From a virus: a DNA stretch of 36,469 bases. Location of the stretch: positions 1-36,469 of the IMG/VR virus record IMGVR_UViG_3300025138_000132; one strand, written 5' to 3'. Under the pieces are notes generated by a model. It searched no databases, was not told the origin of the DNA, and saw nothing but the letters and a program-made list of their open reading frames with translations. Every line of letters starts with the position of its first letter. Position 1 is the first letter of the stretch. A program made the translations under genes and the position numbers. Of this stretch, positions 10,721 to 34,706 are shown in pieces.

Positions 10721-10748
10721 AAATTTGTCTAACCTATAGGAGAATATT

Positions 10749-11012: not shown

Positions 11013-11017
11013 TTCGT

Positions 11018-11036
11018 GTGGGGTGCAATGCCCCAC
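11018..11036 (+). terminator. Hairpin terminator after the acidic late gene
   Basis: GTGGGG (11018-11023) pairs with CCCCAC (11031-11036) around TGCAATG, followed by an AT-rich run ATTATATTATT. GC-rich stem in AT-rich surroundings, between a late gene and the next early promoter. Confidence 0.7.
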
Positions 11037-11054
11037 CAATTATATTATTAATCG

Positions 11055-11083
11055 TTTACATTATGCCAAAAGTATGGTATAAT
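11055..11083 (+). promoter_or_regulatory. Sigma70-type promoter P4 for the clamp-loader operon
   Basis: TTTACA at 11055-11060, 17-bp spacer, TATAAT at 11078-11083, GG before and ATATA after. Expected start near 11090; AAAGGA lies before the ATG at 11107. Confidence 0.85.
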
Positions 11084-11106
11084 ATATAAACAACAAAGGA
11101 ATTATT

Positions 11107-11370: not shown

Positions 11371-12298
11371 ATTTCTCTGGGTAGAAAAATACAGACCGTC
11401 TAAGATTGACGAAACTGTATTGCCTGACAATATTAAAAACACGTTCAAAGACATCGTAGCTGGAGGAGAGTTACATAATATGTTATTGACTGGTACTCCT
11501 GGTACTGGTAAAACAACAGTAGCTAGAGCTTTATGTAACGAATTAGACTTAGATTATCTATTAATTAATGGATCTGAAGAGTCTGGTATCGATACGTTAA
11601 GAACTAAAATTAAACATTTCGCATCAAGCGTATCTCTTTCGGGTGGATATAAGGTTGTAATTCTCGATGAAGCTGATTACTTAAATCCACAATCTACCCA
11701 ACCTGCTTTAAGAGCGTTCATTGAAGAATTCAGTTCTAATTGTAGATTTATTCTTACATGTAATTTTAAAAATCGAATCATAGAGCCTCTACATTCTAGA
11801 TGTTCTACTATCGAATTTAATATTGCTCAAAAAGATATGCCACCATTGCTAGCTCAGTTCTTAGATCGTTGCGAAATGATTCTTAAAGTGAACAATGTTA
11901 ACTATGAGAAACAAGTACTAGCTGAACTCTTAATGAAACATATGCCAGACTGGCGTAGAGTTTTAAATGAATTACAAAGATACTCAGTATCAGGCACAAT
12001 AGATTCTGGCATACTTGTCAATCTTAATGACGTCTCAATTGATAAACTAATTAATCATCTTAAACTTAAAAACTTCAGAGGTATGAGACAATGGGTTGCA
12101 GATAATATGGACAGCGAACCAGCTGCTTTATTCAGAAAAATATATGATAATATGAATGACTATATTGACCCCCAGTCGATTCCTCAAACAGTTCTTATCT
12201 TAGCTGATTATCAATACAAGAACAGCTTTGTAGCAGATCATGAACTAAACTTAGTAGCATGCTTAACTGAAATTATGGCAGGAGTCAAATTCAAATGA
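11363..12298 (+). CDS. 44: gp44 clamp-loader large subunit
   Basis: A 311-residue AAA+ clamp-loader ATPase (T4 gp44 is 319 aa). It opens with FLWVEKYRPSKIDE, has Walker A GTPGTGKTT near residues 44-52, a DEAD Walker B at 102-105 and the arginine-finger SRC motif (LHSRCSTI) near 144. Four gp44 subunits plus one gp62 load gp45 onto primer-template junctions. The start is GTG at 11363, in the overlap with the preceding gene, with GGGAGG at 11351-11356; the ATG at 11367 is in another frame. Confidence 0.95.
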   Translation: MNEFLWVEKYRPSKIDETVLPDNIKNTFKDIVAGGELHNMLLTGTPGTGKTTVARALCNELDLDYLLINGSEESGIDTLRTKIKHFASSVSLSGGYKVVILDEADYLNPQSTQPALRAFIEEFSSNCRFILTCNFKNRIIEPLHSRCSTIEFNIAQKDMPPLLAQFLDRCEMILKVNNVNYEKQVLAELLMKHMPDWRRVLNELQRYSVSGTIDSGILVNLNDVSIDKLINHLKLKNFRGMRQWVADNMDSEPAALFRKIYDNMNDYIDPQSIPQTVLILADYQYKNSFVADHELNLVACLTEIMAGVKFK

Positions 12299-12498
12299 AT
12301 GACTTAGTCATACAAGAATTACAAATATACAAAAATAATATCAGAGAATTGCAAGCTCAATTAGCTGCAGCTCATAAAAGAATTAGTGAACTTACTGACG
12401 AAATCACAGATCAGAAAATGAAACAAAAAAGCATGACTGAACTGAATTACGATGGTAATGAAACTCGTGGGAGGTATGGAGAAGATGAATCCATTTGA
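12295..12498 (+). CDS. Small coiled-coil hypothetical protein
   Basis: A 67-residue protein that begins in the gene 44 stop (ATGA overlap). Residues 5-45 form an amphipathic, heptad-like helix (ELQAQLAAAHKRISELTDEI), followed by a polar tail. No function is recognised. Its position between the two clamp-loader subunits, and its overlap with the gene 62 start, suggest translational coupling through the operon. Confidence 0.6.
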   Translation: MNDLVIQELQIYKNNIRELQAQLAAAHKRISELTDEITDQKMKQKSMTELNYDGNETRGRYGEDESI

Positions 12499-12865
12499 AT
12501 ACGTAAAAGCAATTAATACCTCAAAGAAAGACATTATGGTTGATGATCTAGCTGAAAAAGAATATCCAGCTTTTCTCGTTAATCGATCTCTATCTTATTT
12601 TCAAGATACAATACTCTATGCGAATGAAATGAATATACAACATCACATAGATAGTCGCCTTCAGTTTGATTTTTTTATAAATATAATTAAGAAGAAAAAT
12701 CGATTTTCAAAATGGCTTAAGCCAACTGAGATCGATAATATTGAAATAATTAAAGAATATTATGGATATAGCAATGAGAAAGCTAAATCTGTATTAGCAT
12801 TGTTCGGACAGAATGAGATCGATGCATTAAGACAAAGGATTTACAAAGGTGGAAGATCAAAATAA
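12485..12865 (+). CDS. 62: gp62 clamp-loader small subunit
   Basis: A 126-residue protein beginning MNPFEYVKAINTSKKD, with LVNRSLSYFQDTILYANEMN and FSKWLKP, a pattern I recognise from gp62 of marine T4-like phages. They are much shorter than T4 gp62 (187 aa). gp62 completes the gp44/62 clamp loader. I chose the ATG at 12485, which has GGGAGG at 12469-12474; upstream in-frame ATGs at 12452 and 12476 have worse spacing. It overlaps the preceding gene by 14 bp and the regA start by 17 bp. Confidence 0.85.
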   Translation: MNPFEYVKAINTSKKDIMVDDLAEKEYPAFLVNRSLSYFQDTILYANEMNIQHHIDSRLQFDFFINIIKKKNRFSKWLKPTEIDNIEIIKEYYGYSNEKAKSVLALFGQNEIDALRQRIYKGGRSK

Positions 12866-13280
12866 TAACCAAATAACAGACTGGTCTCCGGCATCTATGC
12901 TCGAGATTACGTTAAACGAACCAGACGATTTTTTAAAGGTAAGAGAAACTCTTACTAGAATAGGAGTAGCTTCGAGAAAAGACAACAAGCTATTTCAATC
13001 GTGTCATATTCTGCATAAACAAGGCAGATACTTTATAGTCCATTTTAAAGAACTATTTCTATTAGACGGAAAGCCTTCTAATTTAATAGTTAATGATGTA
13101 CAAAGAAGAAATACAATTGCAACTCTACTCGCAGATTGGGGATTACTATCCATGATTAAGCCAGAAGAAGCAAAGGATATAGCACCTCTACGTCAGATTA
13201 AGGTAATACCTTATAAAGACAAACAACTATGGGAACTATGTCCAAAATATAATATTGGTAATAATCAATCTGAAGATTGA
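12849..13280 (+). CDS. regA: RegA translational repressor
   Basis: Residues from MLEITLNEPDDFLKVRETL onward match T4 RegA (122 aa) closely, including RIGVAS, QSCHILHKQGRYFIVHFKE, the LLADWGL segment and the ending CPKYNIGN. RegA binds around start codons of many early mRNAs and represses translation. Two starts are possible: GTG at 12849 (143 aa, overlaps gene 62) and ATG at 12897 (127 aa), which coincides with the T4 N-terminus. The longer form is listed because an AAAGG lies near the GTG; the shorter one may be the real protein. Order 45-44-62-regA-43 is as in T4. Confidence 0.93.
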   Translation: MEDQNNNQITDWSPASMLEITLNEPDDFLKVRETLTRIGVASRKDNKLFQSCHILHKQGRYFIVHFKELFLLDGKPSNLIVNDVQRRNTIATLLADWGLLSMIKPEEAKDIAPLRQIKVIPYKDKQLWELCPKYNIGNNQSED

Positions 13281-13285
13281 ACTAT

Positions 13286-13293
13286 TATAAATA
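13286..13293 (+). promoter_or_regulatory. T4-type late promoter TATAAATA (L2)
   Basis: A perfect octamer 5 bp after the regA stop; predicted start near 13300, exactly where the following hairpin begins. Drives the Hsp20 gene. Confidence 0.75.
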
Positions 13294-13300
13294 TAATAGA

Positions 13301-13324
13301 GAAACGTCGGAATGGCCGAGTTTC
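13301..13324 (+). other. 5' leader hairpin of the Hsp20 transcript
   Basis: GAAAC (13301-13305), bulged G, TCGG pairs with CCGA and GTTTC (13316-13324) around AATGG: 9 bp with one bulge. It would form the very 5' end of the late mRNA and may protect it from 5'-end-dependent decay. Confidence 0.6.
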
Positions 13325-13358
13325 CAATAACCTTGCTATTTAATAGGAGGAACATAAA

Positions 13359-13814
13359 ATGGTAAGAAATACAATGAACGTGCCGCGTTCTTTATTTATC
13401 GGATTTGAACCGATACTAAACGAGCTTGAAAGAATCCACTCAGCTGGACGATCTCAAGATAACTATCCACCTCATAACGTTGTTAAGGTCGATGATGAAA
13501 ATTTCATTATTGAACTTGCTGTTGCGGGATTCTCGGAAGAGGACATTTCCGTTGAGGTTAAAGATGGGATACTTTTAGTAAAGGCAGAAAGCTCGATTAA
13601 AGATGATCGCGAATATGCACATAAAGGTATATCATCCCGCAAATTCGAGAAGTCCTTCCGACTCTCAGAGTTTGTCGTAATAGATGGTGCTGACCTTAAG
13701 AATGGAATACTAGTGGTGAATGCCAGAGTTGAAGTTCCAGAAGAGAGGCGTCCGAGGAAGATCAATATAGGGTCTACTGGGACATCAACAAAGAAAGAGT
13801 TTATTTCAGAATAA
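13359..13814 (+). CDS. Small heat-shock protein Hsp20
   Basis: A 151-residue alpha-crystallin-type chaperone. The sequence has the NYPPHNV entry, the alpha-crystallin core with VAGFSEEDISVEVKDGIL, a GISSRKFEKSFRL strand pair, LKNGILVV, and a C-terminal INI (I-x-I) motif for oligomer assembly. Hsp20 is typical of marine T4-like phages and is thought to guard protein folding or assembly. AGGAGG lies upstream of the ATG. It is inserted between regA and gene 43 with its own late promoter, unlike the flanking early genes. Confidence 0.92.
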   Translation: MVRNTMNVPRSLFIGFEPILNELERIHSAGRSQDNYPPHNVVKVDDENFIIELAVAGFSEEDISVEVKDGILLVKAESSIKDDREYAHKGISSRKFEKSFRLSEFVVIDGADLKNGILVVNARVEVPEERRPRKINIGSTGTSTKKEFISE

Positions 13815-13870
13815 TCTCTCAATTAGCGAAAACTCAGTAGATATGTTTAGCAACAATTTACTGGAGATAA

Positions 13871-14008
13871 ATGATGACAAAGATTAAAGCTTATATGGCT
13901 GACCATCATGATATCGCTAAGACCTTATTAGACATGATGGAGGTATTTGTAATAGCAGCAGTTTGTTTAGGTACAACACCTGCAATTATATACTTCACAA
14001 TGCACTAA
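13871..14008 (+). CDS. Small single-pass membrane protein (45 aa)
   Basis: A short open frame with two ATGs (13871, 13874) and GGAG just before. The first 23 residues are polar and His/Asp-rich; residues 24-43 are hydrophobic and uncharged (VFVIAAVCLGTTPAIIYFTM), a likely transmembrane helix. Function unknown. It follows Hsp20, most likely on the same late transcript, and ends just before a strong hairpin terminator. This and the flanking signals fill the gap between Hsp20 and gene 43. Confidence 0.6.
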   Translation: MMTKIKAYMADHHDIAKTLLDMMEVFVIAAVCLGTTPAIIYFTMH

Positions 14009-14032
14009 TAAGATCCAACGATAATATCATTA

Positions 14033-14068
14033 GAGTGGGAGTTAGTAGAAATACGAAGCTCCCCACTC
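14033..14068 (+). terminator. Hairpin terminator before gene 43, with an alternative stem
   Basis: GAGTGGGAG (14033-14041) pairs with CTCCCCACTC (14059-14068), one bulged C. The loop carries TTAGTAG (14042-14048), which is exactly complementary to CTACTAA at 14071-14077, so a second, competing pairing is possible. It ends the late Hsp20 unit. Confidence 0.7.
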
Positions 14069-14094
14069 ACCTACTAAAATAATGAAAATAATCG

Positions 14095-14123
14095 TTTACA
14101 TTTGACTTGAAATGTGGTATAAT
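14095..14123 (+). promoter_or_regulatory. Sigma70-type promoter P5 for gene 43 (leaderless)
   Basis: TTTACA at 14095-14100, 17-bp spacer, TATAAT at 14118-14123 with GG before. The expected start, 7 nt after the -10, is 14130; the polymerase ATG is at 14131. No ribosome-binding site can fit on this mRNA. Confidence 0.85.
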
Positions 14124-14130
14124 ATATATA

Positions 14131-16671
14131 ATGACAAATTTTTACACTAACGTTACTCGCTATGGAAATACTCTGCTTTACCGTGGAATAGAAAACGGTA
14201 AACGAGCTACCAAACGCGTTAAATACAAACCAAGACTTTACGTTACTACGAATCGGCCGACTGAATGGCATGCTCTTAATGGACAGCCAGTAGGAGAAGT
14301 TGAATTTGATTCTATGCGTGATGCTAAAGAATGGATTGATGAAAAGAAACATATTGTCGGTCTTGATCTTCATGGCCAAGTTCGATATGTCTCAGCATTT
14401 ATCAATGACAAGTTTCCAGGCAAAATCGAATTCGATCGTAATAAGATTAATGTAACTACAATTGATATTGAAGTACAATCTGACGACGGCTTTCCTCAAC
14501 CTGAAGATGCAGCATATCCAATTACAGCTATCTGTCTCAAAAACAACATTGACAATACTTACTATGTCTGGGGTTGTGGAGACTATGATGTTAAAAAGAC
14601 TCTTATGAAAACTAACAGAGTCATATACAAGCAGTTCGAAAACGAATCGCTACTCTTGCATGATTTTCTTGAACATTGGTCTAAAGAATCAAATACTCCT
14701 GACGTCTTAACTGGCTGGAACGTTCGTTTCTTTGATTTACCTTATATCGTAAATCGTATCAAAAGACTTATTGGCGAAGAACAAATCTATAAGCTATCGC
14801 CGTGGGGCAAGTCTCTAAAAGGTCATGCTTTCCAAGATGACAGACCTAGTTCTAAGTTTGGACGCGAACAAGCTGGATATAGAATACAAGGGATATCTGT
14901 TATCGATTATCTAGAGCTCTTTCAAAAGTTTGGATACTCTTACGGCCCACAAGAAACATATAAACTTGATCACATAGCTAATGTTGTTCTTGGCGAAAAG
15001 AAACTATCTTACGATGAGTATCATGATCTCTTTTCTCTATATAAACATAACTATCAAAAGTTTATTGATTATAATATTAAAGACGTAGAACTCGTTGATC
15101 GACTCGAAGATAAGCTTGGTCTTATTACGCTTGCTGTAACTATGGCTTATCAAGCTGGAGTTAATTATACTGATACCTTTGGTACTACAGCTATCTGGGA
15201 TAGTATCATATATCGACAACTAAATGACAAAAAAGTAGCTATTCCTTTTGCTGAAGATAAGCACAAAACAATGTATCCAGGCGGCTATGTAAAAGATCCT
15301 CATGTAGGAATGCATGAATGGGTTACTAGTTTCGATTTGAATTCTCTATATCCTTCAATTATTATGCAGTACAATATGTCTCCAGAGACTATTGCTAACG
15401 GCATGACTGAACAAGTTAATGTTGATGGATTACTATTAGATAATAAACCCGTACGTACAAAAGACATGGCTCTTGCTGCGAACGGTCAGTATTTCAGAAC
15501 TGATAAGAAAGGTATACTACCTGAAATCATCGATGAAATGTACACAGAACGTGTTGAGATTAAGAATGCTATGATTCAAGCTCAACAACAACTACAACTC
15601 ATAGATAAAAATGATAAACAAGAATTATACAAAATTGAAAGGGATATTGCCATCAATGAAAATCGACAAATGGCAATTAAAATTCTCCTTAATTCTCTTT
15701 ATGGTGCTCTCGGCAATCGTTATTTTCGATTCTTCGATCAGAGAATTGCAGAAGCCATTACCCTCACCGGACAGCTTACAATTCGATGGGCCGAATACTC
15801 CATCAATACTTACCTCAACAAAGTGTTACAACCAGCCAAACCCAAGGATTACGTACTTGCAATCGACACGGACTCTTTGTATGTTGGCTTAGGCGACTTA
15901 GTCGATAAAATCAATCCTTCTGATCCTACCAGCTTCTTAGATAAGGCTGCATCAGAAATGCTCGAACCAGTTTTAGCACAGTCTTATGATAGACTATATG
16001 CTAAACTCGGAGGCATCGATAATCGAATGGTCATGAAACGTGAAGCAATTGCAGATCGTGGTATATGGACAGCTAAGAAAAGATATATTCTCAATGTACA
16101 TGACAATGAAGGTGTACGATATGCTGAGCCTAAGCTTAAAATCATGGGCATTGAAGCTATCAAGTCATCTACTCCTGCTCCATGCAGAGATGCTCTAAAA
16201 AAGATCTTCAATGTAATCATAACAGCTAACGAATCAGATACTCAACTAGCTATTGATCAATTTAAAGGCTATTTCAGGACTCTTAATCCTGATGAGATTG
16301 CTTTTCCACGTGGAGTAACTAAAGTAAAACAATTCAAAGGTACTGATACTCTCTACAAAAAGGGTACACCAATTCATGTTCGTGGTAGTTTACTCTATAA
16401 CCACATGTTATCTGACTTGTCATTACAAAAGAAATACGAAAAGATTAAAAACGGAGAAAAGATTAAGTTTATCTATCTTCGTACTCCAAATCCAATTCAT
16501 GAAAATGTCATATCGTTTCCAACGTATCTGCCTGATGAATTTAATTTGCATAAATATATAGACTACGATACACAATTTCAAAAGACTTTCCTCGATCCAA
16601 TTGAGCCGATCCTGGAAGCAATAGGCTGGTCTTCCGAAGAACGTTCTACATTAGATGAATTCTTTGCATAA
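14131..16671 (+). CDS. 43: gp43 family B DNA polymerase
   Basis: From the ATG at 14131 the protein has 846 residues (T4 gp43: 898). The exonuclease DIE motif is at residues 112-114, as in T4. Exo II contains [12 protein letters not shown]. Polymerase motif A is [10 protein letters not shown], motif B is [12 protein letters not shown] and motif C is AIDTDSLYV. The ending [12 protein letters not shown] is T4-like. All catalytic aspartates are present, so both polymerase and proofreading should be active. An in-frame TTG at 14107 would extend it, but the promoter -10 box lies within that extension and T4 alignment supports MTNFYTNV as the N-terminus. The mRNA from P5 should be leaderless. Confidence 0.97.
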
Positions 16672-19525: not shown

Positions 19526-19861
19526 ATGAAAGAAAGTTTAAAAGTGTTACAAGAATGTGCAGAAATGCAAACAAAAAAATCTCAAGATTATCAAAGTCAT
19601 GAGTCGACAGTACTTCAAGCGATGCATTATCGCAGAGGTATCGATACAATTCATGATATCTTAATCGGCAAGATGCAGAGAGCGACTTCAATAATTGAAT
19701 CAGGTAACGAACCTAATTATGAATCGCTAGAAGATACCTACAAAGATATGGTTAACTATGCAAGTTTTGCAGTATCATATATTCGTGGTAAAATGGAAGG
19801 ACAAGATCCTGAACGAGACATGTTTAATAAAAGGAAAATTGATGTATCAGAACACGACTAA
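19526..19861 (+). CDS. DUF1599 / nucleotide modification-associated domain 1 protein
   Basis: A 111-residue helical protein. KKSQDYQSHE near the N-terminus, then DILIGKMQRATSIIE and YKDMVNYASFAV fit the DUF1599 pattern (K..DY, K..R, D...Y), a MazG-like helical family named for its association with DNA base-modification gene clusters. A nucleotide-pyrophosphatase-like role is plausible but unproven. The mRNA from P7 should start one base before the ATG. It overlaps the dCMP hydroxymethylase gene by 20 bp. Confidence 0.65.
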   Translation: MKESLKVLQECAEMQTKKSQDYQSHESTVLQAMHYRRGIDTIHDILIGKMQRATSIIESGNEPNYESLEDTYKDMVNYASFAVSYIRGKMEGQDPERDMFNKRKIDVSEHD

Positions 19862-20525
19862 AGATATTGCAGAAATCTTTGTAAATGCTCTTGAAAATAA
19901 AGAGTTTACAATGGATAAAACTGGCTGTAAAACAATTGAAATAATTGGTGCTAATTTTATCGCAGATAAGCCAGCAATATTTGGTAAGCCAAACTATGAA
20001 TATATCGATAAAGAAATCGATTGGTACGAATCTGAATCAACTAATATTAATGATATATATGGTGATGAAAGAGAACCACCTGAAGCATGGAAGTATTCAG
20101 CAGATCCTCATGGAAATATTAATTCTAATTATGGTAAGCTTATATATTCACAACAATATTATAATCAATATGCGTGCGTAGTAGAAGAGTTATGTGATAA
20201 TCCAGATTCCCGTAGAGCATCAATGATATATCAAAGACCAAGTATATGGACTGAATATTATCAAAATGGTAAATCAGATTTTATTTGTACAAATGCAGCA
20301 ACTTATTATATTCGCGACGGCCAAGTACATTCAGTAGTTCAAATGAGATCTAATGATGTAGTATTTGGATATCGTAACGATTATGCTTGGCAAGAATATG
20401 TATTAAAATCTTTAGTTCATGATTTAGAAAAAGAAATGTATTTTGGTAGTCTTGAAGTAGGTAACATCTTCTGGCAAGTACAAAATTTACATGTTTATGA
20501 AAGACATTTTGATTTGGTTAAATAA
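19842..20525 (+). CDS. 42: dCMP hydroxymethylase (gp42 type)
   Basis: From the ATG at 19842 (AAGGA upstream) the protein has 227 residues (T4 gp42: 246). It follows T4 gp42 closely: DKTGCKTIEIIGANF, NPDSRRASMIYQRPS, FICTNAATYYIRDG with catalytic C149 (T4 C148), and MRSNDVVFGYRNDYAWQ with D180 (T4 D179). That Asp replaces the Asn of thymidylate synthases and selects cytosine, so the product should be 5-hydroxymethyl-dCMP made with methylene-tetrahydrofolate. The C-terminus is about 20 residues shorter than in T4. It implies that the phage DNA carries 5-hydroxymethylcytosine or a derivative. Followed immediately by dCMP deaminase. Confidence 0.92.
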   Translation: MYQNTTKDIAEIFVNALENKEFTMDKTGCKTIEIIGANFIADKPAIFGKPNYEYIDKEIDWYESESTNINDIYGDEREPPEAWKYSADPHGNINSNYGKLIYSQQYYNQYACVVEELCDNPDSRRASMIYQRPSIWTEYYQNGKSDFICTNAATYYIRDGQVHSVVQMRSNDVVFGYRNDYAWQEYVLKSLVHDLEKEMYFGSLEVGNIFWQVQNLHVYERHFDLVK

Positions 20526-20972
20526 ATGAACAAATGGGATCAAAGATATTTAGGCTTAGCTAAAGAAATAGCTGGCTGGTCTAAAGATCCAAGTACGCAA
20601 GTTGGCGCGATTGCGGTATCTGATATGGGTGGAGTTATTGCTCAAGGCTATAATGGGTTTCCTCGAGGAATCGAAGATAACGAATATAGACTAGCCGATA
20701 AAGAATCTAAATACAGATATGTAGTGCATGCTGAAATGAATTGTATATATAACGCAGCTTATCAAGGCTCATGTCTTGTAGGCTCAACAATATATGTACA
20801 TGGATTGCCAGTATGTAATGAATGCGCAAAAGGAATAATTCAATCAGGTATAATTAGAGTAGTATCGCCGAAAATAAAAGACGGGACTATTATTCCAATT
20901 AAATGGAAACAATCATTATATACAACGCTTGAATTATTTGAAGAAGTCGGAATCGACTATGATTTCGTCTAG
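20526..20972 (+). CDS. cd: dCMP deaminase
   Basis: A 148-residue zinc deaminase. The HAE zinc/proton-transfer motif is in VVHAEMNCIYNA (near residue 69) and the two zinc cysteines are in LPVCNECAKGII (near 97-100). The N-terminal SKDPSTQVGAI is characteristic. It converts dCMP to dUMP, feeding ThyX (30305) with substrate for dTMP. The start abuts the gene 42 stop. Shorter than T4 Cd (193 aa). Confidence 0.93.
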   Translation: MNKWDQRYLGLAKEIAGWSKDPSTQVGAIAVSDMGGVIAQGYNGFPRGIEDNEYRLADKESKYRYVVHAEMNCIYNAAYQGSCLVGSTIYVHGLPVCNECAKGIIQSGIIRVVSPKIKDGTIIPIKWKQSLYTTLELFEEVGIDYDFV

Positions 20973-20980
20973 TATAAATA
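20973..20980 (+). promoter_or_regulatory. T4-type late promoter TATAAATA (L3)
   Basis: A perfect octamer that begins right after the deaminase stop; expected start near 20987. Drives the inositol-phosphate synthase and probably the modification genes behind it. Confidence 0.75.
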
Positions 20981-20982
20981 TA

Positions 20983-21029
20983 TTATAGAGTGAGCTACTC
21001 TGGCCTCCAGCCAAATCTACTCACTATAA
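20983..21029 (+). other. 5' leader hairpin of the inositol-phosphate synthase transcript
   Basis: TTATAG (20983-20988), bulged AG, TGAG (20991-20994) pair with CTCA and CTATAA (21020-21029); an inner CTGG/CCAG stem lies at 21000-21010. The predicted transcript starts within the outer stem. Confidence 0.55.
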
Positions 21030-21058
21030 TAAACTGATATAAAAGGAGGAAATAACTT

Positions 21059-22339
21059 ATGTCAAAAATAAATATCGCCATCGCAGGCGTAGGCAATTGT
21101 TCATCAGCACTCGTGCAAGGTGTTCAATATTATAAAGAAAACCCAGAAGATACTATTGGTCTAATGTTTCAAGACATTGGTGGTTATTCAGCTTCGAACT
21201 TTAATTTCGTAGTTGGATTTGATGTAGATTCGCGTAAAGTTGGTAAAAGACTAAACACTGCAATCTATGCAAAGCCAAATTGTAATATGGAAGTATATCC
21301 TGAAGGTCATGATATGAGCTGTATTACTAATGAATCAACTGTATATAGATCACCAACACTTGATGGCATTGCGCCACATATGCATGATCTAGACGAAAAC
21401 GTTTCATTCTTAGAAGATACAGAAACTGATGCTATTACAGCAACTCAGTATCGTAAAATTCTTAAAGAAAGTAAAGTTGATGTATTACTCAATTACATGC
21501 CAGTAGGTTCTGAAGAAGCTGCTAGATGGCATATTGAAAATGCTATTCGTGCAGGAATTCATATTGTTAATTGTATGCCAACTTACATCTCAACTAAAGA
21601 TGCTATGGACTTAGAACAACTAGCAATCGATAATGGTGTTACTATTGTTGGTTCAGATATGCGTTCTGATTATGGAGCTTCTCGTTTATCTGAAGTACTA
21701 CAAGGATCTATTATGGATTCTGGTTTATTAGTTACTCAGCACATACAAGAGAATAAAGCGTGTGGAGCGACTCAAGGAGATATGCGTAGAACAGGACGTA
21801 CTGCTAACACAGATTTCTTGAATATGGCTACTAAAGACCGTCTAAAGAATAAGCATATTTCGAAAGAAAATGTACTTAATGGTCAAGCTGTAGTACGTGG
21901 TAAAGATATCGCTGGTCTTACAATGTATGCTGGTCCATCTCTTACTGTTTTTCAGAAACCAGGTGATGAGTATATTGGATCAGATAATAAAATCGCTAAT
22001 ATCGATATGGTATTTTGGGGTTGGGCAGGAGCTCGTTATGAACTAACTGCTCGTCTATCCGTTCAAGATTCTCCAAATAGCGCTGGTATCGTATATGATG
22101 CTATTCGATTTTGTAAGGTTGCTTCTGAAATGGGAATTGTTGGCTACTTACGTGGTCCATCAGCATGGTCACAAAAGACTCCACCAGAACAACTTAAAAC
22201 AGCAGATGCTAAATTTGAATGTGATGCATTAGCTCGTAGAGTTTTAACTGATAAAACAACTCCACAACTTCAACAAAATAAACCAAAGGTAGAAGATCTA
22301 ACTTATACATTCCAATCAGGCGAGAATGACTATGCGTGA
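21059..22339 (+). CDS. Myo-inositol-1-phosphate synthase (MIPS)
   Basis: A 426-residue protein. The N-terminal Rossmann motif INIAIAGVGNCSSALVQG binds NAD. VLLNYMPVGSEEAARWH, then GIHIVNCMPTY, GVTIVGSDMRSDYGASRLSE and later NSAGIVYDAIRFCK are MIPS motifs of the bacterial type. The enzyme isomerises glucose-6-phosphate to inositol-1(3)-phosphate. It is well expressed by design: late promoter L3, a structured leader and AAAGGAGG before the ATG. In context it may supply inositol phosphate or an inositol moiety for DNA modification, but a lipid or osmolyte role is possible. The stop overlaps the HAD gene. Confidence 0.9.
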   Translation: MSKINIAIAGVGNCSSALVQGVQYYKENPEDTIGLMFQDIGGYSASNFNFVVGFDVDSRKVGKRLNTAIYAKPNCNMEVYPEGHDMSCITNESTVYRSPTLDGIAPHMHDLDENVSFLEDTETDAITATQYRKILKESKVDVLLNYMPVGSEEAARWHIENAIRAGIHIVNCMPTYISTKDAMDLEQLAIDNGVTIVGSDMRSDYGASRLSEVLQGSIMDSGLLVTQHIQENKACGATQGDMRRTGRTANTDFLNMATKDRLKNKHISKENVLNGQAVVRGKDIAGLTMYAGPSLTVFQKPGDEYIGSDNKIANIDMVFWGWAGARYELTARLSVQDSPNSAGIVYDAIRFCKVASEMGIVGYLRGPSAWSQKTPPEQLKTADAKFECDALARRVLTDKTTPQLQQNKPKVEDLTYTFQSGENDYA

Positions 22340-22718
22340 TCAAATAAGAATTAATACTTTTGACATTGATGGCGTAATAGATTTTGGTGAAGATTTTACA
22401 GGCGTAAGACCTAGTTATGGTGATATTATCATAACTGGGCGGCCGATCTACGAATTAAAAAAGACTCAAGAGATGCTTATTTCTAGAGGTATAGATAATA
22501 TAGTATATTGTAATCCTCTTTCAAGAGATGACATTAGATACAATAGGAATACCTCAGGTCAATTTAAATCTGGGATAATTACTACATTAAAAAAAATAGG
22601 CTATGACATTGCAATGCATTTTGAGGATGATCCAATTCAGATCAAAGAAATTAGAAAAGATCATCCAGACCTTAATATTATACATTTGAAGCGAGAAGAT
22701 GGGATACTCGAATACTAA
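22326..22718 (+). CDS. HAD-superfamily phosphatase-like protein
   Basis: A 130-residue protein with all HAD motifs: NTFDIDGVIDF (motif I, DxDG), IIITGRP (motif II), a Lys in GQFKSGI (motif III) and HFEDDPIQI (motif IV). It has only a minimal core without a large cap, like small 5'-nucleotidase/phosphatase members. Its start lies in the end of the MIPS gene (14-bp overlap), so it may dephosphorylate inositol phosphate, or a modified nucleotide; substrate is inference. ATG at 22326 precedes another ATG at 22332. Confidence 0.8.
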   Translation: MTMRDQIRINTFDIDGVIDFGEDFTGVRPSYGDIIITGRPIYELKKTQEMLISRGIDNIVYCNPLSRDDIRYNRNTSGQFKSGIITTLKKIGYDIAMHFEDDPIQIKEIRKDHPDLNIIHLKREDGILEY

Positions 22719-23772
22719 ATACTTATACGACTGGAATACATACGATACGGAATTAATGAAGGACTTTAATTGGTTCCTTTATAAAGTTAATCAAAGAGCT
22801 TGCATTCAGCAAGGCTTTATATCTGAAAAATACGAAGCTGTAAATCGGCATGGAGAAACTGACTTTGGCTTAGGCGAAGATGTAGAATATTTCCATCCAA
22901 CAATTACTCTTGATGATCGTATGAGATTCATTGGTACTCAAATTGCTTCTCATCCAATGAGTTTGACTAACATTGTCGGTAATACAATTATATCTCATTT
23001 CTATGGAGCAAGAGGAGTTCATTTTCTAGCTTCAGGTCAAGATGGAGACTTTGTCGACTTTGATAGAATTGCTGATAAAGATAATGATTATAAAGCTTTT
23101 ATTAAAGGTAATTTAGATAAAGCTACAAAAAATAAGCAACCAATATGGGGTACTACAGAATTACATACCTCGATTCAAACGTCAGCAAGAAACTTTTGTC
23201 GGGAATACTATAATCAGCCAGATAGAAAGTTTCATGCATTTGACGTATGTGAATGGGTTGCTTCGTTTAGAGATACAAAGATAATCGAAGGAATGTTAAA
23301 CTGTAATAATATGGAACAAGTGTATACACTTCTCCGTACGTTGCCTGGCATTGGAGAGTATTATGGATTTCATTGCGCAGCTTCTACATCAGTTTTACCT
23401 CAAATGAAATATCACCATGATCAAAGATTTGTATCTCCAGGACCTGGTGCTGTATATACAATAAAATTAATGTGGCCAAATGCTCCAAAGAAAGCGTATG
23501 CTGATTCTATTTATTTTTTAAGAGAAAATTCAGATGAAATTGGACTTACAGCTAATGTTGATTTCGACAGTAATGCATTTAATATCAAACTAAGAGACGG
23601 AAGTTCTTTATTTTCTGAAGAACAAAATACTCTAAAGTACTATGGAACAGAAGTACTTTGTTGTCAGTTTGGTGTATATCTACAAATACGAGATGACGAA
23701 AAAGCATGCGCTCGTAGGCAAGTAGCAAGAGCTAAGACAACAAACACACAATCATTATCGGAGTTTATGTAA
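22699..23772 (+). CDS. aGPT-PPlase / amino-acid:DNA-transferase-like protein
   Basis: A 357-residue protein. A helix-hairpin-helix-like LPGIGEYYGFHCAAST near residues 214-229 is followed by HHDQRFVSPGPGAVYTIK near 241-258. This pairing (hairpin G-x-G, then D..w/f...GPGA) is the pattern I know from alpha-glutamyl/putrescinyl-thymine pyrophosphorylase-like proteins and the helical domain of 5-hmdU DNA kinases, enzymes of phage thymidine hypermodification. No P-loop kinase domain is fused, which fits the transferase-like clades. Here it sits with a cytosine hydroxymethylase, so it may act on modified cytosine. Assignment is by pattern. It overlaps the HAD gene by 20 bp. Confidence 0.6.
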   Translation: MGYSNTKYLYDWNTYDTELMKDFNWFLYKVNQRACIQQGFISEKYEAVNRHGETDFGLGEDVEYFHPTITLDDRMRFIGTQIASHPMSLTNIVGNTIISHFYGARGVHFLASGQDGDFVDFDRIADKDNDYKAFIKGNLDKATKNKQPIWGTTELHTSIQTSARNFCREYYNQPDRKFHAFDVCEWVASFRDTKIIEGMLNCNNMEQVYTLLRTLPGIGEYYGFHCAASTSVLPQMKYHHDQRFVSPGPGAVYTIKLMWPNAPKKAYADSIYFLRENSDEIGLTANVDFDSNAFNIKLRDGSSLFSEEQNTLKYYGTEVLCCQFGVYLQIRDDEKACARRQVARAKTTNTQSLSEFM

Positions 23773-24494
23773 TGGAATTAAGAGAATATAAAGGCGTTCT
23801 TCATCGAAAAGGAAATAGAACAGATAGAAACATGATCAACGATTGTAGAAATAACTACGAAGATTTTAGATTTTTCCCTGGGTCAGTAGTAGTCGATTTC
23901 GGAGCAAACATCGGAGGATTTGCTCATATGTGTAAGAATGGAAACGTAGATGAATATATTGGGTATGAAGCTGATCCAGAAAATTTTGAGATTCTAGCTA
24001 AGAATTTTCCAAGTGAAAAGGGTATTATTCATAGAGCTGCAGTATCTCATTTAGATGATGAGACATTAACATTTTATAGAACTCCTACAGATCAAGGAAC
24101 ATGCTCAGGATCTGTAACTCCTAATTATCGTTCAAAGAAAAGAAGAACATTAAGATATGAAGTAACTAATTATAATATAGATAAAGTACTCGATGAGCAT
24201 AGACCAACGCATTTAAAGATGGATATTGAAGGAACAGAAGCGCATTGGTTAGAACAGAACAATGGTATATTACCGAGATACATAGAAGAATTTGCACTAG
24301 AATTACATAATAAATCAAACGTTTACAAATTCATGGAAATGTGGTATAATAATATAATAAAGGATTTTAAGATAGTAAGAGCACGTGCAGATTATGGATT
24401 TGAAAATGATAACTTCTGGGAATTTCCAGAGCTTGAGATTGCAGGAAGCGGTTCTCTTTTTGGTGTAGATATATTCATGAGAAGAAGAAAATGA
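23772..24494 (+). CDS. FkbM-family SAM-dependent methyltransferase
   Basis: A 240-residue Class I methyltransferase of the FkbM type: SVVVDFGANIGGFA (SAM-binding motif I), YIGYEADPENFEIL (acidic residue of motif II), then THLKMDIEGTEAHWL and a C-terminal strand pair ending GVDIFMRRRK. FkbM enzymes usually O-methylate sugars or similar hydroxyl groups. In this cluster it may decorate a sugar or inositol attached to DNA; that is inference. The stop of the previous gene overlaps its ATG by one base. A sigma70-type promoter lies inside it at 24322-24350. Confidence 0.85.
   Translation: MELREYKGVLHRKGNRTDRNMINDCRNNYEDFRFFPGSVVVDFGANIGGFAHMCKNGNVDEYIGYEADPENFEILAKNFPSEKGIIHRAAVSHLDDETLTFYRTPTDQGTCSGSVTPNYRSKKRRTLRYEVTNYNIDKVLDEHRPTHLKMDIEGTEAHWLEQNNGILPRYIEEFALELHNKSNVYKFMEMWYNNIIKDFKIVRARADYGFENDNFWEFPELEIAGSGSLFGVDIFMRRRK
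24322..24350 (+). promoter_or_regulatory. Sigma70-type promoter P8, inside the FkbM gene
   Basis: TTTACA at 24322-24327, 17-bp spacer, TATAAT at 24345-24350 with GTGG before. It matches the intergenic copies although it must also encode protein. It would express the following genes up to the C5-methyltransferase early. Confidence 0.75.
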
Positions 24495-24754
24495 ATAATA
24501 TAGAATTAGCAAAATTACAAGATGGTCAATTAGTGTATGGTACTTATGAAGAATGTGAAGCATACGCTGAAAAAGAAGACACTTGTGTTGATATCTATTT
24601 AGATCATGTAAATCCTTCAACAGTGTATAATAAATTTAAATGGATAGGCAAAGGATTATCAGATCCTTATGCTGTTTCTGTTCCTTATAACTATGATAAA
24701 GCGAAGCCGGCTGGAACGTTTAATACTAGAGGAGTTAATACAGATAAATGGTAA
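24491..24754 (+). CDS. Small hypothetical protein
   Basis: An 87-residue soluble protein not recognised. Residues 1-45 contain QDGQLVYGTYEECEAYAEKE, a predicted strand-helix unit. The C-terminal part is aromatic and Pro/Asn-rich. It overlaps the FkbM stop (ATGA) and its own stop overlaps the next small gene, so it is embedded in the modification operon. Confidence 0.6.
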   Translation: MNNIELAKLQDGQLVYGTYEECEAYAEKEDTCVDIYLDHVNPSTVYNKFKWIGKGLSDPYAVSVPYNYDKAKPAGTFNTRGVNTDKW

Positions 24755-24909
24755 GATACTATTGGAAATTATGGGCTAAGTCCCTAGGAGAAAAAGCATC
24801 AGATGATCCAAAAGAAGCTGATATAGTTGCTCTTATGAGAACAGTTATTGTAATAGTAAATTTTGGAACTTGCTTTTTTATTATATCAGGTATACTGAGG
24901 CATTGGTAA
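24748..24909 (+). CDS. Small single-pass membrane protein (53 aa)
   Basis: A short gene starting MVRYYWKLWAKSLGEK, with a hydrophobic stretch VIVIVNFGTCFFIISGIL near residues 32-49. Likely membrane-inserted; function unknown. It overlaps the previous stop by 7 bp, and its TAA overlaps the next ATG (TAATG). Confidence 0.55.
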   Translation: MVRYYWKLWAKSLGEKASDDPKEADIVALMRTVIVIVNFGTCFFIISGILRHW

Positions 24910-25913
24910 TGAAGAATATTATTAATTGTCCTTTCATACCAATTGCAAAAAGAGCAGCATCCCATAGAGGAGCACAAGGAGTAATATATGGCGATCAAAT
25001 ACAACAAAAATACGGACACTGCGATGTCAATTATGGCGGAACAATTAGCGACCACAATGACTATGATAGTCTTTGGGTTTATCATGGCAGTGACTGGAGC
25101 GGTGGTCTCAATATGTTTGGTGGTGTCTATGGTTTTCCATATGTTCAAAACACTGTTAACTTTTCTAGATTTACCGGAAAGGTTTATTCAATTGGAATCG
25201 ATTTTCCACCGTACCATGAAATGGTTCAAGGAAAACTTGACTCCGCTAAGAAAGAAGTTCAGCCGGAATGGTTGGAAGTAGACATTGAAAATTTAAAAAG
25301 GATGTATGATACTGCAGAAACAGTTATATTTCCAAACTTAACTAAAAAATTAATCGTAGGAGATTCACATTCAATCTGTATGTATAGACCAGGTTGGACT
25401 GTAAATAGTGTTCCGTTTAAGACATTGAATGGAGCATTAAACGATGGATTAGAATCATATATCAACGTAGAGACTGAAGGTTCAGTAGAATTCTATTTTG
25501 GTAATATAGATATAAGACATCATGTATGTAGACTGGAAGGCGGTTGGGAGAAGAACGTAAAAGATCTAGCTGAACGATATGTAACGGAGGTGAAGAACTT
25601 ATCTGTTCCAGGTCGTATTTACGAACTTCTACCCATCGAGAACGAATCAAGAAAGCTTCCTCAGTCAGGATACTATAAAGGACAACCATTTTATGGAAGT
25701 TGGGATGAAAGAAACAGAGCAAGAAAACTCTTTAATGAGATTATTCATGACTCTGGATTAGGAATCGAATGGACTAAATATTTATTAAACAAAGACGGAG
25801 AACTAGATTTTGCTTATATGGAAAAGCCTAAATCAATTCATTTGTCAAGAGAATTCTATCCATATTGGAACGGTATAGAAAACAACAATAGCTTGGAGGA
25901 GTTTTTCGGATGA
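24909..25913 (+). CDS. SGNH/GDSL-like protein of the modification cluster
   Basis: From the ATG at 24909 the protein has 334 residues. The central KKLIVGDSHSICMYRPGW (GDSHS at 151-155) and YFGNIDIRHHVCR (near 196-208) resemble the nucleophile block and the fG-ID-R-H block of SGNH hydrolases. The N-terminal 90 residues are Gly/Asp/Tyr-rich and read like a separate domain (YGFPYVQN). SGNH enzymes are esterases or acyltransferases; an acyl or sugar-linked substrate is only a guess. AGGAG motifs near the 3' end serve the next gene, which overlaps by 4 bp. Confidence 0.5.
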   Translation: MKNIINCPFIPIAKRAASHRGAQGVIYGDQIQQKYGHCDVNYGGTISDHNDYDSLWVYHGSDWSGGLNMFGGVYGFPYVQNTVNFSRFTGKVYSIGIDFPPYHEMVQGKLDSAKKEVQPEWLEVDIENLKRMYDTAETVIFPNLTKKLIVGDSHSICMYRPGWTVNSVPFKTLNGALNDGLESYINVETEGSVEFYFGNIDIRHHVCRLEGGWEKNVKDLAERYVTEVKNLSVPGRIYELLPIENESRKLPQSGYYKGQPFYGSWDERNRARKLFNEIIHDSGLGIEWTKYLLNKDGELDFAYMEKPKSIHLSREFYPYWNGIENNNSLEEFFG

Positions 25914-27097
25914 AATATGCGAGTATAATACCACTTATAGGTGGAGAAACAATAGCAATGGAGAATGTTTTTGGTAAAAGACCAGAATATATTCTCACTT
26001 TTGAGGGATTTCAGGCTAATGAAGAACACCTTTTACACCGTTATAACAATGAGGTCCCATATTTGAACCTCTCAGAGGGCCACAGTTACACAGAAAAAGT
26101 TGATGTGATTAATACTGTATGCCCATGTGCAGGGCTAAGCTCACTTAGTCCATCAGCAGCAAGTAATAATCCTATGAATGATTGGATGTATAAAGCTGCA
26201 GAATATGTACTTGGTGAAGTAAAGCCAAAGGTATTCTGGGGAGAAAACGCTCCTAGATTAGCATCTAAAATGGGAGAACCTGTAGTTAAAAGACTAAGAA
26301 AGATTGGCGAAGAGAATGGTTATTCATTTTCTATATTTAAAACTAAATCCATACTTCATGGATTAAGCCAAGTAAGAGATAGAACATTCTATTTCTTTTG
26401 GGAAGGAGATCACGTTCCTTTATTTGATTATATATTAGAAAGACCAGGTAATATTGCTGATGACATACGTAATGTAGAACGTAGAAAAGACGATCCAATG
26501 AGCCAGATACTATGTAATGAAGCAAAGCCTTCAGATAATCCTTACTATCGATATGTATTAGAAGTATTAGAAGGTGGTATAACACATGAAGAGTTTGCAG
26601 CTAAAATAGAAAAAACAACTAATCCAATGGATTATATAGAAGAAAGAACTAATTATAAGAAAGTAGCTGAATGGATGAGAGAAAATGGATACGATAACGT
26701 AGCTAAAAAATGTGATAGACAATATCATAAGCTTAAAGCTGGCGGTAATATAATGCGTAAAACTACAGAAATACCTAAAGACAAGATAGGCGCTTTTGTA
26801 GGACACATGCCTACATGTTTAACTCATCCTGATGAAGATAGATACCTTACTGTACGTGAAGCTTTATCATTAATGAAACTACCAGATGATTTTATCTTAC
26901 TAAATCCTAAACGTTCTTTAAATCATATCTGCCAAAACGTACCAGTTACTACAGCTGAGCATCCTGCTCGTATGATAAAGAAATACTTTGATAATCAATT
27001 AGATATGATTGAGACTAAATTCTTAGTACAAGATAACAAAAAAAGATCCTATAAAAGTGAAAATAATCCTTTACAATTGGACCAATTTATGGTATAA
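25910..27097 (+). CDS. C5-cytosine methyltransferase homologue
   Basis: A 395-residue protein. The C5-MTase motifs are in order: motif I-like PLIGGETIAMENV, motif IV TVCPCAGLSS with the catalytic Cys at 73, motif VI GENAP (E111), motif VIII LSQVRDRTF, and near the C-terminus motif IX YLTVREALSLMKLPDDF and motif X-like NHICQNVPVTTAEHPA. The target-recognition region is long and charged. It should act on cytosine C5 or be a repurposed relative. With a hydroxymethylase making hmC upstream, its real reaction is unclear. The stop lies inside the -10 box of promoter P9. Confidence 0.82.
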   Translation: MKYASIIPLIGGETIAMENVFGKRPEYILTFEGFQANEEHLLHRYNNEVPYLNLSEGHSYTEKVDVINTVCPCAGLSSLSPSAASNNPMNDWMYKAAEYVLGEVKPKVFWGENAPRLASKMGEPVVKRLRKIGEENGYSFSIFKTKSILHGLSQVRDRTFYFFWEGDHVPLFDYILERPGNIADDIRNVERRKDDPMSQILCNEAKPSDNPYYRYVLEVLEGGITHEEFAAKIEKTTNPMDYIEERTNYKKVAEWMRENGYDNVAKKCDRQYHKLKAGGNIMRKTTEIPKDKIGAFVGHMPTCLTHPDEDRYLTVREALSLMKLPDDFILLNPKRSLNHICQNVPVTTAEHPARMIKKYFDNQLDMIETKFLVQDNKKRSYKSENNPLQLDQFMV

Positions 27098-30304: not shown

Positions 30305-30970
30305 ATGATGGACGTGAAACTTATATCATACTCGCAGCCAGCTGAAAACTTGGATATCCCACCAGATATACTTCAGCTGGTTGCATTCTGTGCTAGAGTA
30401 TCTAACCCAGAGAATCAACTAAATACTGAAACTGCAGAAGGCTTAGTTAAGTATCTAATCAAACATAAACATTGGTCGCCACTTGAAATGGCTTCTTGTT
30501 GTATGGAGATTACTACTACTAGAGATATAGCAAGACAGCTACTTAGACACAGGTCTTTTTCTTTTCAAGAATTTAGTCAAAGATATGCTAATCCTATTGA
30601 AGATTTAGAATTTACTACAAGAGAAGCGAGACTACAAGATAATAAAAACAGACAAAACTCCATTGATATTCCTATGGAAGACTCAATTAATTATGTATGG
30701 GAATCATACCAAGAAGTAATTATTGAACGCTGTAGGAAAGCATATGAATGGGCGATTGAAGCCGGAATCGCTAAAGAGCAGGCTAGAGCAGTTTTACCTG
30801 AAGGTTTAACTGTAAGTAAGTTATATGTAAACGGAACAATTCGTTCATGGATACACTATATTGAATTGAGATCTGATAATGGAACGCAGAAAGAGCATAT
30901 GGAAATAGCCAAAAAATGCGCTGAAGCAATTGATTACATTTTTCCTTATAATGAAATATTTGAAAAATAA
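30305..30970 (+). CDS. thyX: ThyX flavin-dependent thymidylate synthase
   Basis: A 221-residue protein with the ThyX signature RHRSFSFQEFSQRYA (RHRx7S type), KHWSPLEMASCCMEI before it and REQ-like ARAVLPEGLTVSKLYVNGTIRSWIHYIELR after it. It methylates dUMP to dTMP with FAD and NADPH. With dCMP deaminase it provides dTMP, whereas T4 uses a ThyA-type enzyme. AAGGAG precedes the ATG; a second ATG is at 30308. It ends just ahead of the -35 of P10. Confidence 0.95.
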   Translation: MMDVKLISYSQPAENLDIPPDILQLVAFCARVSNPENQLNTETAEGLVKYLIKHKHWSPLEMASCCMEITTTRDIARQLLRHRSFSFQEFSQRYANPIEDLEFTTREARLQDNKNRQNSIDIPMEDSINYVWESYQEVIIERCRKAYEWAIEAGIAKEQARAVLPEGLTVSKLYVNGTIRSWIHYIELRSDNGTQKEHMEIAKKCAEAIDYIFPYNEIFEK

Positions 30971-32899: not shown

Positions 32900-33076
32900 A
32901 TGAATAGTTTTAAACAATTTTTCGAAGAGATTTCTCCTGAAGTAAAGAAGGAAATAGAAGCTATTGTTAAGAAGCTAGATGATCAAGACTTCCAAGCTAA
33001 ATATGGAAGTGATTGGGAAAAAGAACAGATAAAAACAGCAATTAAATTAATTAAACGAAAAAAGGCAGCTAAATGA
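32900..33076 (+). CDS. Small late protein with a targeting-like N-terminus (58 aa)
   Basis: Starts MNSFKQFFEEISPEVKKEIE, close to the MK-x-F-x-x-F-x-x-E form of T4 capsid-targeting sequences, and continues with helical Lys/Glu/Asp residues. Its stop overlaps the next ATG (ATGA). No catalytic motif. Confidence 0.6.
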   Translation: MNSFKQFFEEISPEVKKEIEAIVKKLDDQDFQAKYGSDWEKEQIKTAIKLIKRKKAAK

Positions 33077-34314
33077 AAAGTTTAATGAACTATACTATAT
33101 TAACCGAAGCCAAGAATACTCATATGACTCATATTGAGGATTTAATCTTGGACGGTGGAGTTAAAGGGGCACGCCAGGCAATTCTCGCTCTAAGATCACT
33201 ACGAGACATGTTATCCGGTAACGCGAAGGCGCCAGTAGACGTTACGGTCAAGTGGGACGGTGCCCCAGCTGTTTTTGCAGGAGAAGATCCAACTGATAAT
33301 ACATTCTTTGTTGCAAAGAAAGGAATATTCGCTAAAAATCCAAAGGTGTATAAGTCTCATGCAGATATCGATGCTGATACATCAGGTGATCTAAATAAAA
33401 AACTAAAATTAGCATTTGATAATCTAAAAGACTTAGGTATTAAAGGAGTCATTCAAGGCGACTTTATGTTTGATAGCTCTGATTTAAAGACAGAGAAAAT
33501 TAATGGAAATAAGTACATTACTTTCCACCCTAATACTATTGTTTACGCTATTCCAGATAGCAGCAAATTAGCAAAGGAAATAAAGAAAGCTAAGTTAGGT
33601 ATTGTATGGCATACGTCATATTCAGGTGGAACTTTCGAAACTATGAAAGCGGAGTTTGGTAGAGATATAGTTAATAAATTAAAATCCTCATCGAACGTCT
33701 GGATGCAAGACGCAACATTACCAGAGCTATCAGGAAGCGCTACAATGACAGCAAAAGAAACACTGGAAGTTACTAAACATTTATCAAATGCTGGTAAACT
33801 ATTTAAAAAAATAGCAGCAAATACTTTAAAAGTAATAGAAAGCGATAAAGAATTAAATGCAGTTATAAACATATATAACAACAGGAAAGTAAGAGAAGGA
33901 CAAAGGATTACTAATACTAAAAGCCATGCAACTGGCTTAATTATGTTTGTTAAGGATAGATACCAAAAAGAAATTGATAAACTATCTAAAGCGCAGGCTA
34001 TAGAGAACAGAGAAAAGAAAAGAGATGAATTATTAAAGTTTTTTGATAAAAAGAACTTAAAAAACCTTCAAAATGTGTTCGATTTACAAAATTCAGTTGT
34101 CGATGCAAAATTAATTATTATAAATAAACTAAACAGTCTTAATAGTATTGGGACGTTTGTAAAAACAAAATCCGGATTTAAGGTAACCAACCCAGAAGGT
34201 TTCGTTGCTATAGATCGTATGGAAGGTGGAGCTGTAAAATTAGTAGATCGTTTAGAATTTGCTACTAATAACTTCAGCAAAGATATAATAAAAGGTTGGG
34301 ACAATCCTAACTAA
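33073..34314 (+). CDS. DUF6267-like, ligase-type nucleotidyltransferase-like protein
   Basis: A 413-residue protein. N-terminal MKSLMNYTILTEAKNTHMTH carries an L-T-E site. DVTVKWDGAPAVFAG has KWDG at 60-63, as in motif I (KxDG) of covalent nucleotidyltransferases such as ligases; VIQGDFMF may be motif III-like, and near the C-terminus EGFVAIDR (E375) and KLVDR (K389) resemble motifs IV and V. The protein is of a type common in T4-like cyanophages and known to me as DUF6267. Whether it is an active ligase or only shares the fold is unknown. Confidence 0.6.
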   Translation: MKSLMNYTILTEAKNTHMTHIEDLILDGGVKGARQAILALRSLRDMLSGNAKAPVDVTVKWDGAPAVFAGEDPTDNTFFVAKKGIFAKNPKVYKSHADIDADTSGDLNKKLKLAFDNLKDLGIKGVIQGDFMFDSSDLKTEKINGNKYITFHPNTIVYAIPDSSKLAKEIKKAKLGIVWHTSYSGGTFETMKAEFGRDIVNKLKSSSNVWMQDATLPELSGSATMTAKETLEVTKHLSNAGKLFKKIAANTLKVIESDKELNAVINIYNNRKVREGQRITNTKSHATGLIMFVKDRYQKEIDKLSKAQAIENREKKRDELLKFFDKKNLKNLQNVFDLQNSVVDAKLIIINKLNSLNSIGTFVKTKSGFKVTNPEGFVAIDRMEGGAVKLVDRLEFATNNFSKDIIKGWDNPN

Positions 34315-34336
34315 TTTAATGGGAAACCGAGGATAA

Positions 34337-34702
34337 ATGAAGTCATTTCACGAATATTACGCTGACGAAGCTATGTCGATGCAGACTCGTATGAAGATGA
34401 AACGAGCAGCAAAGAAGAATAAAGGCAAAATGAAAATTGCCCGTATGAAAGCAGCTAAAAAGAAAGCAAATCCAGAAAAGTTAAAACAACGAGCTATGAA
34501 ACAAGCTCGAAACATGCTTATCAAACAATTAATGAAAGGTAAAGGCAAAGATGAACTTTCATTTGGTCAAAGAGCTGGTCTAGAAAAGAAATTAGATGCT
34601 AAAAAAGGCAAAATCAAACAACTAGCTAAGAAACTATTACCTTCTATTAAGAAGAAAGAATCAGAAAAGTTTGCTAAGAAATCTAAAGGAAGTGAAGAAT
34701 AA
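34337..34702 (+). CDS. Lys-rich probable DNA-associated late protein
   Basis: A 121-residue, extremely basic protein. After MKSFHEYYADEAMSMQ it is almost entirely Lys/Arg/Ala/Met helix, with ELSFGQRAGLEKKLDAKKG near the middle. Such composition suits a DNA-binding or head-core protein. With the targeting-like N-terminus and late promoter L4 it may be an internal head protein packaged with DNA. GGAT/GAGG bases lie before the ATG. Confidence 0.65.
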   Translation: MKSFHEYYADEAMSMQTRMKMKRAAKKNKGKMKIARMKAAKKKANPEKLKQRAMKQARNMLIKQLMKGKGKDELSFGQRAGLEKKLDAKKGKIKQLAKKLLPSIKKKESEKFAKKSKGSEE

Positions 34703-34706
34703 TATT

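Follow-up and report, generated by a model that had tools for sequence, protein, structure and literature searches.

Phages of the T4 type cover 5-hydroxymethylcytosine (hmC) by glucosylation, using gp42 and an alpha/beta-glucosyltransferase, and RB69 does so by arabinosylation. In phages ViI, M6, PhiW-14, and SP10, thymidine is hypermodified by a 5-hydroxymethyldeoxyuridine (5-hmdU) kinase together with ADDT/PUGT, all of which belong to aGPT-PPlase families. Here we describe a gene cassette at positions 19526-27097 of the IMG/VR record IMGVR_UViG_3300025138_000132, a 36-kb fragment of a marine virus of bacteria (36,469 nucleotides, referred to below in its entirety as the window). Judging from comparison with other phages, we read the cassette, with a probability of about 0.58, as an hmC decoration cassette that would join inositol to hmC by means of a DNA enzyme other than a glycosyltransferase.

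The cassette resembles the T4 and RB69 systems in that gp42 is predicted to make 5-hydroxymethyl-dCMP (hm-dCMP), a second enzyme would decorate hmC, and T4-like replication genes lie around it. By gene content (PHROG), the window belongs to a T4-like phage, encoding a late sigma factor, SbcC/D-type (gp46/47) subunits, sliding clamp, clamp loader, and RegA, and further a DNA polymerase, UvsX, and others; a near DNA match to it was not found in the phage collection. Unlike T4 and RB69, no glycosyltransferase was found in the cassette by Pfam, NCBIfam, and PHROG scans (a result for the cassette only, within a 36-kb fragment), and in its place are a myo-inositol-1(3)-phosphate synthase (MIPS), a HAD phosphatase, an HMUDK_hel protein, and an SGNH-fold protein. 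With thymidine hypermodification it shares the HMUDK_hel domain and, by prediction, a small-molecule group on a 5-hydroxymethyl pyrimidine in DNA, but its base would be hmC, a P-loop kinase domain and ADDT are absent, and MIPS would supply the group.

The same two domains also occur together in 44RR2.8t, whose ORF233c is a 795-aa SGNH-HMUDK_hel fusion in a phage with gp42, and likewise in Aeromonas phage 31 and others. 44RR2.8t and 31 differ from the window in lacking a MIPS match and a homologue of the cassette's C5-cytosine methyltransferase (C5-MTase), and in having an SGLT-type symporter adjacent. The original prediction knew of no T4-like phage that combines an aGPT-PPlase relative and an hmC enzyme, but these genomes do combine them. 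According to a review of the T4-like phages, those of the 44RR type have no glucosyltransferase genes, and how their hmC is modified was left open (Petrov et al., 2010; PMC2993671). Directly upstream of the fusion in 44RR2.8t is ORF234c (L002, 7405-8928), an SGLT-family sodium/sugar symporter that might bring in a substrate such as a sugar or polyol.

Two further cytosine systems are comparable in part. Phages with a 5-hydroxymethylcytosine carbamoyltransferase (PMC8670742) also carry dCMP hydroxymethylase, dCMP deaminase, and PRA-PH genes near the hmC-modifying enzyme; the window has no carbamoyltransferase and has other decorating enzymes. In the CmoX/CmoY system for 5-carboxymethylcytosine (PMC12783734), a C5-MTase homologue likewise lies inside a cytosine hypermodification cluster, but the homologue in the window has CPC instead of SPPC, and CmoA and CmoY were not found in the cassette.

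An exchangeable block between gp42 and the C5-MTase homologue

All open reading frames (ORFs) of the cassette are on the + strand and joined in one run, with overlaps of 1-20 nt between most genes and a sole real gap of 86 bp upstream of MIPS. Gene identities were assigned by Pfam, NCBIfam, and PHROG scans, and the mostly overlapping run of named genes that had been recognized by eye was borne out. This gene order is repeated in dozens of other viral contigs, far above chance.

Using the C5-MTase homologue alone (25910-27097; PF00145, E 1e-15) as a query of viral contigs, we obtained 30 loci with enough upstream sequence. All 30 contain gp42. The four genes for MIPS, HAD, HMUDK_hel, and SGNH occur as a complete set in 16 of them and are all missing from the other 14, with no mixed case. 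The genes do travel together; the opposite would, by its own terms, have refuted the original prediction. Where module-free loci span the slot, it holds UDP-galactopyranose mutase (UGM) with a GT-B-like protein and an epimerase, a single TAGT-family glycosyltransferase, or a GT-B-like protein with an epimerase, the GT-B-like labels being our reading of sequences without a Pfam match. Since glycosyltransferase sets fill it in these loci, we conclude that the slot between gp42 and the C5-MTase homologue serves hmC decoration and that the module is exchanged as one block. The alternative modules (in L238, L248, L254, L256, L260, L262, L263, L264, L280, and L282) are of interest in themselves, as some probably make new hmC sugars.

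The base itself is indicated by gp42 (19842-20525; PF00303), whose ATG at 19842 lies within an ORF opening at 19758. It is 54.5% identical to T4 gp42 over 93%, and its best PDB profile match is T4 dCMP hydroxymethylase (E 3e-94; thymidylate synthases reach about 1e-15). Preference for dCMP or dUMP is set by the residue at the position of E. coli Asn177 (PMC8670742), and this is Asp in 22 of 22 homologues; Asp180 and Cys149 are invariant in the homologues. By homology it is thus a true dCMP hydroxymethylase making hm-dCMP, as originally named, and because of the invariant specificity Asp the genome base is taken to be hmC.

Genomic contexts of phage MIPS

Querying with distant MIPS proteins (from Cr30, Menderavirus, and G001) gave 80 loci, 39 of them with 3 kb on both sides. 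Every one of these 39 flanked loci lies in a base-modification cluster: 22 with SGNH and/or HMUDK_hel, 12 with ADDT, and five of the 7-deazaguanine type. SGNH/HMUDK_hel never occurs together with ADDT (0/39 flanked loci, Fisher p 1.6e-6, uncorrected for shared ancestry; 0/80 overall). A HAD gene was recognized in 35/39 flanked loci. The five 7-deazaguanine-type loci and Menderavirus have QueC and GTP cyclohydrolase I, neither of which occurs in any of six contigs of the SGNH or ADDT type.

The hydroxymethylases follow the same division. Among the SGNH/MIPS contigs, seven have a match to the thymidylate synthase (TS) family, and in every one of them the enzyme is of the Asp type, as it is in 44RR (gp42), PTm1 (divergent), and L147 (divergent); contigs without such a match, many of them fragments, are uninformative. 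The four ADDT contigs that were read have Asn-type enzymes only, that of Cr30 resembling an ordinary TS and hence being no guide to hydroxymethyluracil (hmU), and Menderavirus has neither SGNH nor gp42. SGNH therefore tracks hmC-type hydroxymethylases, and ADDT tracks Asn-type enzymes.

Gene order varies by lineage (SGNH-MIPS-HAD-HMUDK_hel vs. MIPS-HAD-HMUDK_hel-SGNH), and in the 159-kb contig G001 gp42 and SGNH lie ~45 kb away from MIPS-HAD-HMUDK_hel, yet all co-occur. Because co-occurrence survives rearrangement, we regard these parts as a working unit. It is an even bet whether phages possess a more general inositol-to-DNA system, in which MIPS and HAD would feed hmC (SGNH/HMUDK_hel), hmU (ADDT), and 7-deazaguanine (DpdA/QueC type) chemistries, so that cytosine, thymine-type, and guanine-type bases of phage DNA would all bear a cyclitol in one phage or another.

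The two other contexts each deserve a remark. MIPS-bearing 7-deazaguanine clusters (L003, i.e., Menderavirus Ps15, 9098-14624; L293, L303, L310, L337, and L343), most of them with HAD, hold GTP cyclohydrolase I, QueE, QueC, and a TGT/DpdA-like protein, which suggests an inositol-decorated 7-deazaguanine. MIPS and HAD adjoin ADDT and a TAGT-like glycosyltransferase in L004 (Caulobacter phage Cr30, 7732-12257), L209, L210, L213, and L216; the Asn-type TS-family enzyme of L209-L216 has a GAN motif and is read as dUMP-hydroxymethylase-like. A query with the Cr30 ADDT returned from the viral contigs only Cr30 itself and one relative.

A predicted route to inosityl-hmC and its rivals

MIPS (21059-22339; PF01658/TIGR03450, E 4e-59) matches Mycobacterium tuberculosis Ino1 in profile comparison (E 3e-94) and belongs to the Ino1 family with the catalytic lysines in place, as the motifs KxxSKENV, DNK, and QKTPP are kept. 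The small HAD protein that follows (22326-22718) has no Pfam match, but its motifs DxDGV, T, K, and EDD are invariant in 16 homologues, and it accompanies MIPS in 39 of 39 marine loci and stands beside it in Menderavirus, Cr30, and most distant phages; we predict it to be an inositol-phosphate phosphatase. MIPS would thus convert glucose-6-phosphate to inositol phosphate, from which HAD would strip the phosphate.

Inositol has no anomeric carbon and for that reason is no glycosyl donor; it is therefore expected to enter as a nucleophile. In hypermodification of the aGPT-PPlase type, a small molecule attacks an activated 5-methylene pyrimidine in DNA, and following this logic inositol may attack hmC. 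The probable base-reading or transferring partner is the HMUDK_hel protein (22699-23772), a member of the aGPT-PPlase clade. Its match to PF18723 (E 5.5e-12) is above the cut-off and places it in the domain family of 5-hmdU DNA kinases, but no P-loop family match was found in it or in the cassette (Pfam, NCBIfam, PHROG), and PF18723 is its sole Pfam match, the ADDT/PUGT domain PF18724 not being found. Its AlphaFold (AF2) model has a predicted local distance difference test (pLDDT) score of 87.5, and the Foldseek matches in the PDB, weak as they are (E 0.7 or worse), are mostly helix-hairpin-helix (HhH) DNA glycosylases and the 5-PmdU glycinyltransferase 8z2n, which fits a base-flipping fold and falls short of proof.

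The SGNH protein (24912-25913, the ATG backed by homologues) has an extra N-terminal part, and its fold was assigned on an AF2 model (pLDDT 84) that matches GDSL/PAF-acetylhydrolase by Foldseek (E 4e-5, probability 1.00). In BFVD the model also matches the phage 31 fusion, which is of the 44RR type (E 7e-25). Conserved blocks GDSH, GNID, and SxHLSR with conserved S152, N198, and H310 agree with the GDS, G/N, and His blocks of the SGNH/GDSL superfamily, upholding on the predicted model an assignment first made by eye. Searching PDB sequences with the SGNH and HMUDK_hel profiles returned no match. Acting on the hmC side, SGNH may tailor the product or else activate the hydroxymethyl group, acylation being one conceivable way; this is the least certain step and a speculative one. 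Where present, an FkbM-family O-methyltransferase (23772-24494; TIGR01444, E 3e-16) would place a methyl on a hydroxyl of the attached group, and the expected product would be inosityl-(oxymethyl)cytosine, at times O-methylated.

Several observations speak against this route. 44RR has HMUDK_hel and SGNH, yet no MIPS, and SGNH is also found without MIPS in phage 25, L112, L143, L144, L147, and PTm1. The fold matches of HMUDK_hel are weak; the substrate of HAD is predicted from adjacency only; and with loci related by descent in a redundant database (IMG/VR), the counts are non-independent and the Fisher p is overstated. SGNH partners elsewhere include UGM/GT-B-like genes (phage 25) and, in L112, L143, L144, and L147, a PLP-type enzyme (phrog_7093) with a ~390-aa family and a gp42-type or Asp-type TS, so that SGNH is linked to hmC and is not inositol-specific. 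The set in these four contigs is possibly an amino-acid-derived hmC modification. Its ~390-aa family has no Pfam, PHROG, or phage match, and hhalign gave no support to its being a relative of HMUDK_hel or ADDT; several contigs classed as bacterial (L140-L147) probably represent phage DNA that was binned together with bacteria. In Aeromonas phage 25 (L005, 5773-9044), UDP-galactopyranose mutase and a GT-B-like protein adjoin SGNH, which hints at galactofuranosyl-hmC.

These varied partners would also suit an attached group that differs among phages, and the MIPS profile matches a five-membered-cyclitol-phosphate synthase as well (E 5e-50); HMUDK_hel and SGNH might then attach another cyclitol phosphate from MIPS, or some other HAD product. 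We consider this unlikely, as the Ino1 match is much better and the lysine motifs are kept. A role of MIPS and HAD in auxiliary metabolism (lipid, osmolyte, or capsule), their place by the modification genes being accidental and SGNH/HMUDK_hel modifying hmC by a host metabolite, appears rather improbable: metabolic genes are common in T4-like phages and 44RR, with its fusion, is not among the MIPS-bearing records, but each of the 39 MIPS loci with flanks sits in a modification cluster of one of three chemistries, and MIPS and HAD swap as a single block with SGNH and HMUDK_hel. The amino-acid-linked group of the original prediction fares poorly, the Pfam match being HMUDK_hel and not ADDT and the window cassette having no PLP or amino-acid enzyme; of that proposal, further build-up of hmC is very probable, and inositol is the best-supported group.

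C5-MTases can couple hmC in DNA with other nucleophiles in vitro, and the homologue in the cassette has invariant catalytic residues (PC, ENV-like EN, and QxRxR in 16 homologues) alongside an altered motif I. It might thus install the group itself, with Cys73 activating hmC covalently, in place of SGNH/HMUDK_hel. We think this very improbable, since it is absent from 44RR, phage 25, PTm1, and G001, all of which retain SGNH, and is equally present in phages with glycosyltransferase modules. Hardly any weight falls on an ordinary hmC or glucosyl-hmC phage with the remaining cassette genes as unrelated passengers: gp42 alone is enough for hmC, but no glycosyltransferase was found in the cassette and the genes are strictly co-inherited through rearrangements.

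Companion genes and implications

Not every gene of the originally proposed island belongs to this chemistry. The C5-MTase homologue is a general companion of gp42 in the marine clade, unspecific to the module, and was dropped as a module core because it is missing from SGNH phages and present without the module; a CmoX reading also failed, as CPC replaces the SPPC required of CmoX (PMC12783734). It accompanies gp42 under every decoration with its catalytic residues intact, though C5 of the DNA base is already substituted. The dCMP deaminase (20526-20972; PF00383, E 9e-19) probably has the ordinary role of supplying dUMP to ThyX, whose presence in the window (30305-30970) accounts for it. FkbM keeps its place only in part: found in 35/50 SGNH/HMUDK_hel loci, 3/22 ADDT loci, and 0/8 others (80 MIPS loci), it is an optional extra, mainly with the SGNH/HMUDK_hel module, and is predicted to act on a hydroxyl of the added group.

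The run opens with a DUF1599/Nmad1 protein (nucleotide-modification associated domain 1; 19526-19861; PF07659, E 2e-7), present in 61 of the first loci retrieved, and includes two small ORFs, one of 87 aa (24491-24754) seen in close relatives only and one of 53 aa (24748-24909) seen in a few relatives. Elsewhere in the window, 33073-35960 encodes a DUF6267 protein and a CTP_transf_like/DUF5824 protein. A CDP-inositol route through the latter, cytidylyltransferase-like gene (34671-35960) was rejected, its PF01467 match being weak (E 1.5e-4, with DUF5824) and its position 7.5 kb from the cassette.

We found no published link of a phage inositol synthase to DNA modification, and an earlier mention in Iyer et al. 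(2013) or Lee et al. (2022) is possible. If our reading is true, this would be a class of DNA base decoration using a cyclitol instead of a sugar or amino acid, of which we found no published report. The predicted nucleoside, inosityl-hm-dC (C16H25N3O10, 419.154 Da, or 14.016 Da more with an FkbM methyl), would have the same mass as its glucosyl counterpart, and routine liquid chromatography-mass spectrometry (LC-MS) could misassign it. Candidate functions can now be proposed for the SGNH-like families phrog_13881/17781, the kinase-less HMUDK_hel proteins, and the phage MIPS phrog_33138, and the question left by the 2010 review, namely what covers hmC in glucosyltransferase-free phages of the 44RR type, becomes testable.

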